Below are positions 3,001-18,171 of a stretch of 40,215 bases of DNA, one piece after another. Numbering within the stretch: position 1 is the stretch's first letter; each line of letters starts with the position of its first letter. The notes below the pieces were generated by a model. It was not told the origin of the DNA, did not search any database, and saw only the letters and a program-made list of their open reading frames with translations. Origin of the DNA: Bacteroidales bacterium (GTDB taxonomy: Bacteria > Bacteroidota > Bacteroidia > Bacteroidales > WCHB1-69); assembly GCA_017525245.1 (NCBI GenBank), contig JAFXTE010000016.1:1-40215 (forward strand). The letters are read 5' to 3'. A program made the translations under genes and the position numbers.

Positions 3001-4411
3001 TACGATGTACCTTTATAGCGGCAACAATCATACCATTCAGAATACTCAGGCGAGCAATATCGTCAAGGTCAAGGTGGAAGGGAGTGGCGGCAAGCCCATC
3101 CGCAACGCCTTGGTCTATTTTGAGCCGAAGGACGGTGGCGCTGTTTCCAATCATGTAGCTTTCACTGACACGAGCGGCATTGCCCAAACGATATGGACAC
3201 CCAGCCCAAGTTCTGCTGTTCATCAGTTGTACGCTTACGCATACGATTGTGAGCAGAACCCTATCAAGGGTGCCCCAGTGGTGTTCACAGCCTACGAATA
3301 CGCAGGCTGTACCAGCTCCACACTCAATTTGCGATATCTCCTCACGGGCAACACCCTGACATTGCAAGCATCAGGAGGTGAACCACCCTACACCTATTCG
3401 GTGGATGGAGAGCATTTTGTGCCTTTGAGCGAGTTGCCACCGCTGTCGGCCTTGGCTAGTTATGTGTTGTCGGTGAAGGATACGAACGGGTGCATCCGTT
3501 CCATCACATACGGCATTCCAGCCAATACAGATTGCGATTGGTCAAACCTTGATATGGACGCTGAATTCAGCAATGGCGCACTGATACTTCAGGGGACGGG
3601 CGGAACCCCTCCTTACCGATATTCTCTAGGCGGGATTTCCTATTCCACAAACAACGTTTTTCCTTCTTTGTCGCCCGGGGTCTATACGGCTTACGTGATG
3701 GATGCCACAGACTGTGACTACAATAGGAGTATCACCGTTGAAGACGATGATATCTTGGATCTCACTTCCTATAATTCACAACCCTGCGCCGGTACAACCA
3801 CCGTCACCGACTACGACGGCAATGTCTATCCCACGATTCAGATCGGGCAGCAGTGCTGGATGAAGGAGAACCTCCGCACCACACACTATGCCGACGGTGA
3901 AATCATCCCGATAGGGTCTGCGTGTTACTATCCCAACGGCAATGCCGGCAACCGGGCGCAGTATGGGCTTTTGTACACGTGGTATGCGGCCACGCGGAAT
4001 ACGTCCAGCAGCAGTAACCCCAGCGGTGTGCGGGGAGCCTGTCCCTACGGCTGGCACGTGCCGAGCGACGATGAATGGAGTCAACTCTTAAGCCAGCCCC
4101 AATTGTTGGTGTGCCCCGCCAAGGCACTGGCGTCGAAGTTTGGTTGGAATATTTCCACCACTGCCTGTTCTCCCGGTTACGAAAATTGGTATAACAACGG
4201 CAGCGGATTCAATGCGCCGCCGGCGGGTCTGTATAACAATGGATATGGCAATTTCGGTTCGGTTGCTTGGTTCTGGAGTACTACCAATTACCCCTACAAC
4301 GTGTGGAGCCGCTTCCTGAGCTACGACGGAGCAGGAGTGGGACGCGACTACAACGGCAGCGACATCAACTATAAGGCGCGCGCCTACTCTGTCCGCTGCC
4401 TCCGCGATTAG
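2..4411 (+). CDS. Giant FISUMP-domain surface protein, 5' end outside the window
   Basis: About 1,469 residues are visible and the frame is open to the left edge. The first visible residues fall in the middle of a repeat seen again at 500, so the true start lies upstream. Order of parts (numbered from the ATG at 5): two near-identical modules starting at residues 2 and 166, each ending in a YNDLT(N/D)KP motif like those in phage and Bacteroidetes tail-fibre proteins; an FN3-like domain with a GVCWST motif (about 300-400); Ig/PKD-like segments (about 425-590); a beta-rich core (about 600-1000); a Big_1-like domain (about 1020-1100); SprB-like segments; and a C-terminal FISUMP domain from about 1262, with the QCWMKENLRTTHYADG signature, ending VRCLRD. 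No T9SS sorting domain follows. It is presumably secreted or cell-surface, with unknown ligand. The middle and C-terminus are paralogous to the gene at 21613. The family call is sure; the function is not. Confidence 0.88.
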   Translation, partial: SMGAKPIYYHESPLAAGVIKANDRCLFMYNGPGERYYLIAIDRWGVDLNALATVAHTGDYNDLTNKPTIPQNVGDLTNDAGYITANDISAQVNADWNATEGPAEILNKPVNADFGQGVVRNKVNNPSGATNIAVNFSTYQLVNGGVVSLVFARAVPAGATLNINNKGAKPIYYHESPLPDGLIKANDRCLFMYNGPGERYYLIAIDRWGVDLNALATVAHTGSYNDLTDKPNIPTNVSAFNNDAGYITEEQMPAGMTGTQTGDIMYWDAATGTWIMMPAGSAGQVLTVENGVPVWANLPDHVTMNLPPTVTTSAPSEVTQASALCGGEVTSDGSVQLTACGVCWSTHHFPTIADAHTENDLSVSAFTSHVTGLAHHTTYYVRAYATNSIGTTYGAEMTFTTEDIPSGDVTMPDPCSADTNTIWHPTLGSGSTLCAGTDSVELTLNNYQYGNIQWQYSTDTISWYDIPGANDTLLVYKPDQTQYVRASVSTANCPPEYSPVKLLLKTPLAYAGISRTANVGDTVRLQAYMEEDATGSWQILQGTGGFLSHPNEDYTKFYGTDSLYRLRWTLTNSCGYSSDDISVRYVQTVVSDRVVMVDTTDIIFSDSAQMAQGYYVISFSDPNIVIGDSTILVSLINGGFMRMVDSWSMANDSTYAMYTTQATLYDILESGVIQFDAISGESEADSAVQNTQPAQEVLYLDHIPTREEIRSNPEMTKSGKVYMLKLDLAREESGLGEHTQGFSLRGLRQQSTSTNKKDTTVKWLVPEYAPDFKYKLENVNFFLDANPVFEYDKDMRHFQFGIYDAKLHLEADFVPNITLGQFTLTFVEWNPIKVEVPFAVPIGPVVVPFTVDCGVTLGVEGSVDISAELRYKLTADATLTEGVNYWGKSHTFTTDRGRSGSFNVERVSDNLEGSVDFEVSIAGYMNVKLAAVAGPRVQTGFKAKMKYCYGLNEKQGWKGKIDAKLYTKLDLKAIKLVDKIIPENWSTECTIPLVEREFPDTMYLYSGNNHTIQNTQASNIVKVKVEGSGGKPIRNALVYFEPKDGGAVSNHVAFTDTSGIAQTIWTPSPSSAVHQLYAYAYDCEQNPIKGAPVVFTAYEYAGCTSSTLNLRYLLTGNTLTLQASGGEPPYTYSVDGEHFVPLSELPPLSALASYVLSVKDTNGCIRSITYGIPANTDCDWSNLDMDAEFSNGALILQGTGGTPPYRYSLGGISYSTNNVFPSLSPGVYTAYVMDATDCDYNRSITVEDDDILDLTSYNSQPCAGTTTVTDYDGNVYPTIQIGQQCWMKENLRTTHYADGEIIPIGSACYYPNGNAGNRAQYGLLYTWYAATRNTSSSSNPSGVRGACPYGWHVPSDDEWSQLLSQPQLLVCPAKALASKFGWNISTTACSPGYENWYNNGSGFNAPPAGLYNNGYGNFGSVAWFWSTTNYPYNVWSRFLSYDGAGVGRDYNGSDINYKARAYSVRCLRD
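8..712 (+). repeat. Long near-identical coding direct repeat with 492-bp period
   Basis: The module beginning at 8 recurs at 500, an offset of 492 bp or 164 codons. Both copies encode GAKPIYYHESPL, then a stretch ending VDLNALATVAHTG, then a YNDLT motif. Differences are few and mostly at third codon positions, implying a recent duplication or ongoing gene conversion. The left copy continues out of the window, so more copies probably lie upstream. Confidence 0.9.
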
Positions 4412-4531: not shown

Positions 4532-4535
4532 GGAG

Positions 4536-4647
4536 CCCTTGCGAGTTCCGGTTTCCGTTTGGCCGGTCAGTGCGTCGCGTTAACGTTATATTGTGGGTTT
4601 CGGCAAATCGAGTTGTTTCCGGTTGTGGAGGGTGGCCAAACGGAATG
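4536..4647 (+). repeat. ~111-bp interspersed repeat, family A, copy 1
   Basis: Roughly 85% identical by eye to 5832-5942, with the last ~36 bp identical. It contains a perfect 12-bp inverted repeat (TTCCGTTTGGCC at 4553-4564, GGCCAAACGGAA at 4634-4645) and the palindrome TAACGTTA, so a transcript could fold into one long hairpin. With copy 2 it brackets the nuclease-like gene at 4856. MITE-like in appearance; family not recognised. Confidence 0.8.
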
Positions 4648-4794
4648 GAGATGAGTTGGTCGAGTCGGTTTTGCTGCGAATCTTTCGAGAATCTGCGAAA
4701 TCTGAAAACATTATTTACAAAAAGTTGTTAAAATATTTTCAATATAAAAATCTAATTTGTTGATATTCAGCAATAAAAATTTTTTCTAAAAAGT

Positions 4795-4826
4795 GTTGAC
4801 AAAGAGTGTTATTTGTTTTATCTTTG
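4795..4826 (+). promoter_or_regulatory. Bacteroidetes-type promoter of the coiled-coil nuclease gene
   Basis: A -33-like GTTG at 4795-4798 is followed by 20 nt and a TATCTTTG -7 box at 4819-4826, matching the Bacteroidetes consensus (TTTG, 19-21 nt, TAnnTTTG). The ATG is 29 nt downstream of the -7 box. The promoter lies inside the repeat-bracketed interval, so the gene carries its own. Confidence 0.75.
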
Positions 4827-4855
4827 CGGCATGTTTAGTTTAAAATTTACAGACC

Positions 4856-5803
4856 ATGAAGGAAGAAGTATCACAATTAGAATTAGAAGTGCCGAAATTA
4901 CGGCAGATGGTGTTGGAGAACACCAAAAGAATCGACAGAAACGAATTGACGATCAACAAAATGCGTATGGAAGCCACCGAACAGACCCGTAAAATCAGCG
5001 AACGCGATGAGAGTTTGGAACTCTCCCGCAGGGAACATGATCGTCGCATGAAAAGCATTGATGAACGGCTGGACCGAATCGCACAGCTTACGGAAGCCTC
5101 GAAAATCAAACAGGAAGAGCACGAAAACGAACTCAAAGAGACTTGGAGGCTTGTAAAGGAGAACTCTGCACAGATGAAAGAGAGCAGGGAGGAGTTCGAC
5201 AGAGGGCTAAAAGAGAGCAGGGAGGAGTTCGACAAACGAATGAAAGAGAGCGAGGAGAAATTCAATAGGGAGTTGAGAGAGAGCAGGGAGGAGTTCGACA
5301 GACGGATGAAAGAGACCGACAGGCAAGTCAAAGATATGTTTGCGGAGACCAATGCATCGATAAGGCGTGTTTCAGTGGAATTCCTCGGTGTCACGGGCCA
5401 CATCGTGGAGGGCTTGGTGAGTTCCTCCGCCGAAAAAGTTTTCAAGGATGCCGGTTTCAATTTGCATAACAGTGGCAAGAATCTGAAACGTGAACTTGCT
5501 TCGGAGAACAGACAGATGGAGTTGGATGTCATGCTCGGCAATGAGAAGATTGTCGTGCCTGTGGAGGTCAAGGCGAACTTCACAAAAAAGAAAGTGAAAC
5601 GCTGGTTACACAAGATGGAGACGTTCAGGGATTTCTTCCCCGAATGCGCCGACAAGGAGGTCGTCGCCGCCGTCGCCGCTATCAACTACGAGGCGGGTGC
5701 GGCCGAACTCGCCCACGAGGAAGGGCTGCTTGTGATCCGTGTCAGCAGTGATGACATCTTCTCCCTTGACCCGGTTGACGAGGAGAAGCTGCGGAAGTTC
5801 TGA
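4856..5803 (+). CDS. Coiled-coil protein with C-terminal PD-(D/E)XK nuclease-like domain
   Basis: 315 residues, soluble, no signal peptide. Residues 1 to about 170 are a charged coiled coil, with tandem units of the form (M/R)KESREEFDR between about 105 and 155. The C-terminal third (about 180-315) has the restriction-endonuclease-fold signature E222-L-D224 then E237-V-K239, with a downstream segment resembling the final strand of such folds. This matches the widespread DUF3782-type family of uncharacterised coiled-coil nucleases (assignment from motif and layout). Nuclease activity is inferred. The start follows a good promoter. The gene is bracketed by ~111-bp direct repeats (4536-4647 and 5832-5942), which suggests it travelled as a unit. 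No partner gene is adjacent. Confidence 0.8.
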   Translation: MKEEVSQLELEVPKLRQMVLENTKRIDRNELTINKMRMEATEQTRKISERDESLELSRREHDRRMKSIDERLDRIAQLTEASKIKQEEHENELKETWRLVKENSAQMKESREEFDRGLKESREEFDKRMKESEEKFNRELRESREEFDRRMKETDRQVKDMFAETNASIRRVSVEFLGVTGHIVEGLVSSSAEKVFKDAGFNLHNSGKNLKRELASENRQMELDVMLGNEKIVVPVEVKANFTKKKVKRWLHKMETFRDFFPECADKEVVAAVAAINYEAGAAELAHEEGLLVIRVSSDDIFSLDPVDEEKLRKF

Positions 5804-5831
5804 AGGAAGGCTCTTTTTTCGTATCCTCCTG

Positions 5832-5942
5832 CCCTTGCGAGTCCCAGTTTCCGCTTGCCCAGACAATGTATCGCTTTAACGTTATGTGTGGGTTTCGGAA
5901 ATGCGTGTTGTTTCCGGTTGTGGAGGGTGGCCAAACGGAATG
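5832..5942 (+). repeat. ~111-bp interspersed repeat, family A, copy 2
   Basis: Direct-orientation partner of 4536-4647. Its 3' third is identical to copy 1, while the left arm of the inverted repeat has decayed (TTCCGCTTGCCC at 5849-5860 against a perfect right arm). It begins 28 nt after the nuclease stop codon. The rest of the spacer, 5943-6111, shows no gene. The only promoter hint before porX is TATTTTTT at 6080-6087. Confidence 0.8.
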
Positions 5943-6111
5943 ATGCATTTGCTGCACGGTTCGTTGGCATGGTTGTGCCGTTCGCGAAGCAGCTGTGGGG
6001 CTGAAGAGCTCGGTAGCCGCGCCGGGGCACCCAAATAAAAAACAGAGACATCAATAAAATAAATCGAAAAAATCGCCGTTATTTTTTCGTTTTTCAAATG
6101 AATAGTAAGAT

Positions 6112-7668
6112 ATGAATACGAAGATTTTATGGGCGGATGACGAGATTGATTTGTTGAAACCGCATATTTTGTTTTTGAAATCTAAAGGTTACGATGTGAT
6201 TCCCGCCATGAGCGGCATGGAGGCGCTGGAAATCCTGAAGACGGAGTTCGTGAACATTATCTTTTTGGACGAGAATATGCCTGGCTTGAGCGGTTTGGAA
6301 ACTCTTCAGCGTCTGAAAAAGGACTATCCGCATATTCCCATCGTGATGATCACCAAGAGCGAGGAGGAGCATATCATGGAGGACGCCATCGGCTCCAACA
6401 TCGCGGACTACCTCATCAAACCGGTGAATCCCAACCAGATACTGCTTTGTCTGAAGAAGAATATCGACAACAAGAAGTTAGTGAGCGAGAAAGTGACCAG
6501 CAACTACCAGCAGTCGTTCCGCGAACTTTCCATGCGCATTTCCGACCGTTTGAGCGTTTCGGAATGGGAGGAACTGTACAAAGAGCTGGTCAACTGGGAA
6601 CTGCAAATCGAAAAGATTGAGGATGAGAGTATTACGGAAATGCTTGCGGCCCAGAAGGAGGAGGCTAACATCCAGTTTGCCAAGTTCGTGCAGCGCAACT
6701 ACCTTGACTGGGTCAACGGTCGCGCCGACGACAAGCCGCTGCAGTCGCATACGGTGCTGAAAGAGAAGCTGTTCCCGAAGCTCAACGACCAGAAGAGCAC
6801 CTTCTTGTTCGTCATTGACAACCTGCGTTACGACCAATGGCGCAGCATCTATCCGATGGTGCATGACTATTATTATATACAAGATGAAAGTATCTGCTAC
6901 AGCATCCTGCCCACAGCCACGCATTATGCCCGCAACTCTTTGTTTTCCGGTCTGATGCCGTCGGTGATCGCCAAAAAATACCCTAACTATTGGCTTAACG
7001 AGAGCGATTCCGGCAGCAAGAACCAGTACGAGGAGCAGCTTTTGGGCGAGTATCTGAAACGCTACGGGAAAAACATAAAATATTCCTACCATAAGATTCT
7101 GAATCCGGATTTTGCCAAGAAGGTGTTCGACAATTTCCACCAGATGTTGAACAACCCGCTGAATGTCATCGTGTTCAACTTTGTGGATATGCTTTCGCAC
7201 GCAGGCACCGACGTCAATGTGGTGCGCGAGTTAGCCGACGACGAGAAGTCCTACCGCAGCGTAACCGCCTCTTGGTTCGAGAACTCTGTTTTGTTTGAGA
7301 TGATCAAGTGGCTGTCGGAGAAGAAGATACCGGTGATGATTACCACTGACCACGGCACCATAAAGGTCGATCGTGCGCTGAAGATGGTGGGCGAGCGCGA
7401 CCTGAACACGAACCTGCGCTACAAGGTGGGCCGCAGCAGCATGGATTATCCCGCCAAGGAGGTCTTCGAAATCAAGAACCCCGACGATGCTTTCCTGCCC
7501 AAAGAAAGTATGACCCAGCGCTTCATCTTCGCCACCAAGTCGGACTTTTTCGCCTACCAGAACAACTTCAACCAGTACGTGAATATGTACAAGAACACGT
7601 TCCAGCACGGCGGAATTTCAATGGAGGAGATGATGATCCCGTTCGTGATTCTCGCGCCGAAAAGTTAG
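6112..7668 (+). CDS. porX: PorX-type response regulator with PglZ domain
   Basis: 518 residues, the same length class as Porphyromonas gingivalis PorX. An N-terminal receiver domain (about 1-120) has the acidic pair D9-D10, phosphoacceptor D53 (FLDENMPG), T81 and K103 (LIKP). A helical linker (about 125-210) leads to a C-terminal PglZ domain of the alkaline-phosphatase superfamily, with metal-site motifs VIDNLRYDQW (D236), PTATHY (T268/T270) and TTDHGT (D413, H414). In characterised Bacteroidetes, PorX with its sensor PorY controls T9SS genes and the PglZ domain is a phosphodiesterase. The cytoplasmic role here is by homology. No porY lies in the window; the neighbours are unrelated. The T9SS context is supported by the sorting-domain gene at 21218 and the PorE-like gene at 32278. 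Confidence 0.93.
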   Translation: MNTKILWADDEIDLLKPHILFLKSKGYDVIPAMSGMEALEILKTEFVNIIFLDENMPGLSGLETLQRLKKDYPHIPIVMITKSEEEHIMEDAIGSNIADYLIKPVNPNQILLCLKKNIDNKKLVSEKVTSNYQQSFRELSMRISDRLSVSEWEELYKELVNWELQIEKIEDESITEMLAAQKEEANIQFAKFVQRNYLDWVNGRADDKPLQSHTVLKEKLFPKLNDQKSTFLFVIDNLRYDQWRSIYPMVHDYYYIQDESICYSILPTATHYARNSLFSGLMPSVIAKKYPNYWLNESDSGSKNQYEEQLLGEYLKRYGKNIKYSYHKILNPDFAKKVFDNFHQMLNNPLNVIVFNFVDMLSHAGTDVNVVRELADDEKSYRSVTASWFENSVLFEMIKWLSEKKIPVMITTDHGTIKVDRALKMVGERDLNTNLRYKVGRSSMDYPAKEVFEIKNPDDAFLPKESMTQRFIFATKSDFFAYQNNFNQYVNMYKNTFQHGGISMEEMMIPFVILAPKS

Positions 7669-17506: not shown

Positions 17507-17617
17507 CCTCACCCCCTGGCCCCTCTCCAAATGGAGAGGGGAGACTAATGTCTCGGTAATCGTTCCGATTCAACGCTATCAGTGGGCTCCTCCCCTTTAG
17601 GAGAGGCCGGGAGGGGT
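17507..17617 (+). repeat. ~111-bp interspersed repeat, family B, copy 1
   Basis: About 92% identical by eye to 18060-18171. It has a hairpin CCCCTCTCCA-AA-TGGAGAGGGG near its left end and imperfect terminal inverted repeats: the left end ACCCCCTGGCCCCTCTCC resembles the reverse complement of the right end, ACCCCTCCCGGCCTCTCC. It begins one base after the alpha-2-macroglobulin stop codon. Confidence 0.85.
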
Positions 17618-18059: not shown

Positions 18060-18171
18060 CCTCACCCCCTGGCCCCTCTCCAAATGGAGAGGGGAGACCA
18101 ATGCCTCGGTAATTGTTCCGATATAACGCTATCAGTGGACTCCTCCCCTTTAGGGGAGGCCAGGGAGGGGT
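18060..18171 (+). repeat. ~111-bp interspersed repeat, family B, copy 2
   Basis: Direct-orientation partner of 17507-17617, differing by about nine substitutions and a 1-bp insertion. Its right end runs into a short tandem duplication at about 18162-18201 (AGGGAGGGGTGATTTGGAG twice). Confidence 0.85.

Follow-up and report, generated by a model that had tools for sequence, protein, structure and literature searches.

When a palindromic repeat occurs twice in direct orientation with a single gene in between, does that gene owe its place to the repeats, and if so, how? The question is raised by the window, a stretch of 40,215 nucleotides that makes up the entire contig C105 of its genome (G000, a 3.68-Mb draft of a rumen-type Bacteroidales). 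An earlier note on this DNA had described two direct copies of a repeat of about 111 bp around a nuclease-fold gene, and had proposed a minimal mobile unit consisting of such a gene and its flanking repeats. Here the repeat (REP A) and the gene (P0001) are followed through G000 and other genomes, all of which are drafts.

The repeats around P0001

The arrangement itself is readily confirmed (Table 1). The two copies of REP A lie in direct orientation, are 86% identical across 113 bp, and enclose a single ORF. Copy 1 contains a perfect 12-bp inverted repeat, TTCCGTTTGGCC/GGCCAAACGGAA (4553-4564/4634-4645), and the left arm of copy 2, as read from the sequence, has decayed to TTCCGCTTGCCC. The leader of P0001 includes a TTGACA (4796-4801) and a TATCTTTG (4819-4826), which by eye resemble a promoter of the Bacteroidetes type and which we liken to the -33/-7 consensus of that group. 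The long ORF on the left is presumably FISUMP-like. The likeness of the two copies is more than chance, REP A recurring elsewhere in G000 with matches up to E=6e-34.

Table 1. Position of the repeats, genes and promoter-like sequence within the window
Feature	Position	Strand	Basis
Left neighbour, long ORF running off the contig start	2..4411	+	
REP A copy 1, with perfect 12-bp inverted repeat	4535..4648	+	repeat comparison
Promoter-like TTGACA...TATCTTTG, in the 207-bp leader between REP A copy 1 and P0001	4796..4826	+	by eye
P0001 (315 aa), with an N-terminal coiled-coil-like region and a putative PD-(D/E)XK-type domain at the C-terminus	4856..5803	+	
REP A copy 2, beginning 28 bp past the P0001 stop codon	5831..5942	+	
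Right-hand neighbour, conserved, anchor for comparisons ("porX", a name given in the earlier note)	6112..7668	+	
Repeat B copy 1	17507..17616	+	
P0002, DUF559 (PF04480), 126 aa	17644..18024	+	Pfam, 132.2 bits against a cut-off of 20.6
Repeat B copy 2	18060..18169	+	

A structured RNA was considered for the repeat region and set aside: Rfam gives no match above the gathering score between 4300 and 6150, and single-strand folds are no better than those of shuffled sequences (z -0.2 to -0.9). Several repeat regions, in the window (6010-6060) and at L045, L046 and L044, finish in another dispersed motif, which by eye is GCCGCGCCGGGGCRCCCAAAT-like.

The protein is best described as a putative PD-(D/E)XK-type nuclease, judging from a D...ExK motif; an alignment of 18 sequences chosen from 35 loci of the family, P0001 among them, shows no variation at D224, E237 or K239. 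Its N-terminal part is repetitive and coiled-coil-like, with 33-bp repeats at the DNA level. Pfam finds no family over its cut-off, a sequence search of the PDB returns nothing better than E=0.6, and PADLOC gives weak coiled-coil matches and no defence family beyond these. A phage origin was also considered and dropped, the matches being weak only.

Bracketing is not a rule of the P0001 family. Among 35 loci of the family (part of the homologue matches, usually a single one for each genome, and flanks of up to 1.5 kb), REP A is absent at 33, and direct repeats lie fully outside the gene on both sides at only 2, the window and C296 of G050. The gene at this second locus (L097) is a distant homologue from another family, and its 106-bp direct repeats (1250-1355 and 2436-2541; 83% identical) are unrelated to REP A. 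When four extra named or overlapping loci were scanned for REP A, it was present at two, both in G025, and absent from the other two. A 299-bp repeat on C11 of G017 (L087) overlaps the end of a P0001-family gene and represents a tandem gene copy. In G016 (L078), two elements with REP A arms and an unrelated core (2788-2914 and 3161-3287) lie together upstream of a P0001-family gene.

REP A and the genes beside it

REP A is a dispersed intergenic palindrome that is not private to P0001. A search of G000 yields 38 matches at E<=10, of which 17, on 12 contigs, reach E<=2.5e-9; the copies are 73-87% identical to copy 1. Near-full copies have conserved arms, with sequence conservation that extends slightly outside the inverted repeat. 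Between the arms lies a core of rather constant length: a two-arm pattern picks out 70 distinct cores in the DNA retrieved, and 64 of these measure 68-78 nt; as this DNA is enriched in repeat matches, the core counts are not genome frequencies. Clustering at 62% linkage gives classes of 36, 14 and 5 members plus smaller ones, with unrelated sequences. The repeat, spread through part of one Bacteroidales genus, occurs in 10 of 60 genomes (G000 included in both counts; E<=0.01), every one of that genus, and the orientation of the adjoining genes relative to it is not constant.

REP A is associated with several families of single accessory genes. In G000, besides P0001, it lies beside Rpn genes (PF12784) at C11, C60 and C98 (two at the last), a YhcG gene and a deaminase/HATPase gene at C102, an Abi_2 gene at C89, and DUF5618 genes at C86, C19 and C109; on C38, an ORF6N gene lies near partial copies. 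Four of the six Rpn genes of G000 are within ~350 bp of REP A, and the other two have no REP A within 1.5 kb. PADLOC assigns YhcG to PDC-S02, ORF6N to PDC-S05 and the Abi protein to AbiD; two Rpn proteins give weak matches only, and DUF5618 gives none. Pfam identifies the DUF5618 and AbiD genes as DUF5618 and Abi_2 only. In view of these PADLOC results, the defence label is presumptive for DUF5618 and for P0001, where it is a guess from the company that the gene keeps; for Rpn it follows Zhong et al. (PMC10327210).

Tentatively, and with somewhat less than even confidence, we read REP A as a short, palindromic, non-autonomous element that marks single accessory genes, often of defence type, and assists in their exchange. 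The element has two conserved arms, which carry TTCCGTTTGGCC in inverted form and flank a core of near-constant length. Recombination or breakage at REP A could then underlie the gain, loss, duplication or replacement of single genes, and the repeat would act as portable homology for single-gene cassettes, with P0001 as one cargo.

The association was quantified with ten query families picked from the REP A neighbours in G000. Within G000 itself, 9 of 11 REP A regions hold a query family, a count that is largely circular, the families having been taken from there. The relatives provide a fairer test of enrichment, because the query families came from the neighbours of REP A in G000. Loci were obtained for 29 matches, and removal of three from G000 and two that overlapped left 24 distinct regions. 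Twelve of these hold a query family, versus two matches in a 400-kb control from G000 (Fisher 2e-10, with the control taken as 148 bins); this control was hand-picked once the REP A positions were known, so that its gene counts are usable and its absence of REP A is uninformative. If the two regions with a recognised orthologue among the G000 sites are set aside, the comparison is 10 of 22 versus 2 of 28 porX loci (p=0.002). Of 29 porX control loci, 3 contain a query-family match, which in the case of G025 is its own P0001.

These counts bear on a rival explanation, in which REP A is an ordinary palindrome that piles up in poorly conserved spaces, as accessory genes also do, and the two meet by coincidence. 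Copies at C73 and C100 of G000, and a 39-bit match on C78, do lie between other genes with none of these families beside them, and most P0001 homologues lack REP A. Yet the same unrelated families are enriched beside the repeat in several genomes, which counts against a chance meeting. The earlier note had named two findings that would tell against its mobile unit, a repeat common throughout the genome with no enrichment beside such genes and a gene fixed at its locus. The repeat does prove to be dispersed genome-wide; it is, however, over-represented next to such genes, and P0001 is not fixed.

Rpn, YhcG and, by its motif, P0001 are all of the PD-(D/E)XK type. This would suit a homing process, in which the gene would be copied into the repeat or an empty site during repair of a break made there by its own nuclease, and overexpression of RpnA-D is reported to have raised RecA-independent recombination in E. 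coli (PMC5350276). Nevertheless, REP A also borders DUF5618 and AbiD genes, the sequence specificity of RpnA in vitro was low or absent (PMC5350276), and Zhong et al. consider a role of Rpn proteins as transposases highly unlikely (PMC10327210). Homing is therefore regarded as very unlikely. P0001 would more probably be a nuclease that serves in defence than one that drives its own movement. The ORF6N protein at L055 (4727-5743) contains a stretch, HDRFLIID, which we take to resemble a phospholipase-D-type nuclease motif, so that more of the REP A cargo may be nucleases. Of the earlier proposal of a minimal mobile nuclease unit, then, the enrichment of REP A beside nuclease- and defence-type genes stands, together with the polymorphism described below, but not the restriction to nucleases, given the DUF5618 and AbiD genes, the 33 family loci that lack the repeat, and a second P0001 copy of G025 (below) that went into a gap without one.

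Sites with changing gene content

P0001 and REP A are present at the porX locus in G000 and one relative and absent in others, in keeping with the earlier expectation that the gene would be polymorphic there. A search of 40 genomes for porX gives a match in 35 and none in 5, and loci were obtained for 30 of the 35. P0001 and REP A lie upstream of porX in two of these (G000 and G025), and neither is found within 1.5 kb in the other 28. In G020 and G013, whose porX genes are 99% and 98% identical, respectively, the last ~85 bp before porX are kept and a different gene lies further left. Thus, a single clean insertion does not account for the change at this locus.

P0001 occurs a second time in G025. 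Contigs C37 and C118 of that genome each end inside the gene, and C37 runs into one gene, and C118 into the other, of a pair that adjoin on C100 of G000; we infer that the two contigs carry halves of one P0001 gene. Between the two copies in G025, identity is 98% across 306 bp, an alignment that reaches the stop codon. Half a REP A lies about 206 bp upstream of this second copy and none lies downstream, where the gene and its neighbour meet stop codon to stop codon. In G000, the gene pair is separated by 14 bp with no repeat, and the nearest REP A is 2.3 kb off, past the next gene. Because the gap that corresponds to the second copy has no repeat in G000, less trust is placed in exchange and in cassette readings, and more in coincidence.

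Gene content differs at other REP A sites as well. At the C11 site, G000 has a broken Rpn gene between two copies of REP A, G025 has an Rpn gene and a truncated REP A, and G020 has one REP A joined to both flanks with no Rpn gene, part of an Rpn-type leader lying beyond; this last is a single-repeat counterpart of a bracketed site, of the kind that the earlier note had suggested looking for upstream of porX. At the C102 site, YhcG is common to G000 and G020, and the next gene is the deaminase/HATPase gene in G000 versus ORF6N in G020, with repeat pieces between. A further site, locus X, is where relatives have the left flanks of the C60 and C98 sites side by side: G020 has Rpn1 and REP A, G025 has ORF6N between REP A halves plus another gene, G006 and G026 have another gene without REP A, and G013 and G011 have no gene. 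The ORF6N gene between repeat halves had suggested that genes insert inside REP A, an idea discarded as not general, P0001 lying outside the arms. On C83 of G025, the junction of an additional 4-kb stretch does not fall exactly at REP A.

Copies of one gene also occur at several sites. Three close copies of Rpn1, which form one lineage, lie at different sites in G000 with REP A pieces at one or both ends. The right flanks of two of the Rpn1 sites, L049 6600-8760 (C60) and L044 12010-14195 (C98), lie ~1 kb apart in G020 and G013, and it appears that G000 has been rearranged through Rpn1 units or that the contigs are chimeric. The repeat pieces at the ends of the three copies, like the genes between repeat halves, argue against the meeting of REP A and accessory genes being mere coincidence, an explanation that the repeat-free gap in G000 favours and that we judge rather improbable. 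With an identity of 73-87% to copy 1 over ~110 bp, REP A copies would be poor substrates for RecA recombination, a point against the exchange reading.

The same sites can be read as the work of a composite of miniature elements (MITEs): REP A would be moved by a transposase acting in trans, and two copies would carry a gene between them as a TIME-COMP-like unit. Inverted repeats, a fixed length and conserved arms around unrelated cores all fit such an element, as do direct copies around one gene (P0001 in the window; DUF5618 in G013 and G009, which is one shared locus and counts as one case) and several copies of one gene per genome (P0001 twice in G025; Rpn1 at three sites in G000). But no target-site duplication is seen by eye at the porX, C11, X and C100 junctions inspected, whose flanks have diverged, and the conserved sequence continues past the inverted repeat. 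Among the transposase genes examined, none of three of the Y1 type has REP A within 1.5 kb, and a gene on C98, which we take to be transposase-like, has no inverted repeats at its ends. A composite MITE is unlikely, if by no means negligible, and together with coincidence it is the main rival of the reading of REP A as an aid to gene exchange.

Repeat B and known mobile units

The earlier claim of a second nuclease-fold gene with the same layout and an unrelated repeat is borne out by P0002, a DUF559 gene that lies between two copies of repeat B. These are 91-93% identical to each other, and nothing better than E=0.6 is found for them elsewhere in G000. Repeat B is matched in 12 of 118 genomes (G000 included). 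Besides the window, full or nearly full copies are present in G013 (the same locus, with both copies), G020, G016 (two), G008 and G063. DUF559 adjoins repeat B in G013, on C25 of G016 and on C25 of G008 (one full copy in the latter two) and is absent at the other three sites; the other matches, of 35-38 bp, have no DUF559 in the fetched flanks.

In the boldest reading, REP A would be the recombination site of an undescribed system of single-gene phage-defence cassettes: an enzyme would recognise the conserved arms, and genes with their own promoters would be inserted, swapped and lost around the chromosome. The DUF559 gene and repeat B would then provide another, independent case. We consider this distinctly doubtful.

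Integrons offer one known precedent for such cassettes. As in an integron, there is one gene per imperfect palindrome, in direct orientation, in a local array; the gene content of the C102 array changes, and truncation points recur in the REP A arms, as might be seen if REP A were a site for integron-like, site-specific recombination. Unlike integron cassettes, the REP A genes have promoter-like leaders, vary in orientation and are at dispersed sites. The core of attC is GTTRRRY, from which the arm motif GTTTGGC departs. No integron integrase (TIGR02249) exceeds the cut-off in the 9 draft genomes searched (best about 85 of 265 bits), and on this ground the integron reading was rejected; it must be reckoned exceedingly improbable.

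REP sequences, which are common in some prokaryotic genomes (PMC3733652), are likewise dispersed intergenic palindromes. In contrast to REPs and REPINs, REP A is ~112 bp long, has conserved arms and a variable core, and is absent within 1.5 kb of the three Y1 genes. A RAYT/REPIN reading was rejected on this lack; the unusual shape of REP A alone would not exclude it, given that a Bacteroidetes subclass with atypical structures is reported (PMC6006769).

The closest kind of known element is the TIME-COMP, described as a MITE-bracketed composite (PMC13367494). In both cases, two short non-autonomous repeats surround one passenger gene whose place varies. However, TIME-COMPs are found on plasmids, whereas REP A lies in contigs with housekeeping neighbours, has several core classes, no known parent transposon and no visible target duplication, and some copies of its cargo lack a pair of intact repeats. 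REP A units may be likened to MITE-bracketed composites in the way that they would work, and are no more than candidate members of that class, as neither parent element nor target duplications were found. The literature, as partially covered here, yielded no repeat-bracketed single defence gene in Bacteroidales.

A further comparison is with Rpn itself. Rpn genes (COG5464/PF12784) are described by Zhong et al. as defence genes that are gained and lost singly by an unknown route, with no identifiable inverted terminal repeats (PMC10327210). The sites described above are similar in that single defence genes of the PD-(D/E)XK type come and go singly, but differ from the published cases in that a single repeat family adjoins four Rpn genes, and pieces of it lie at one or both ends of the three close copies. 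Because this family borders both Rpn and other single accessory genes, and relatives differ in gene content at the same sites, the mechanism by which such genes move one at a time becomes testable at specific loci.
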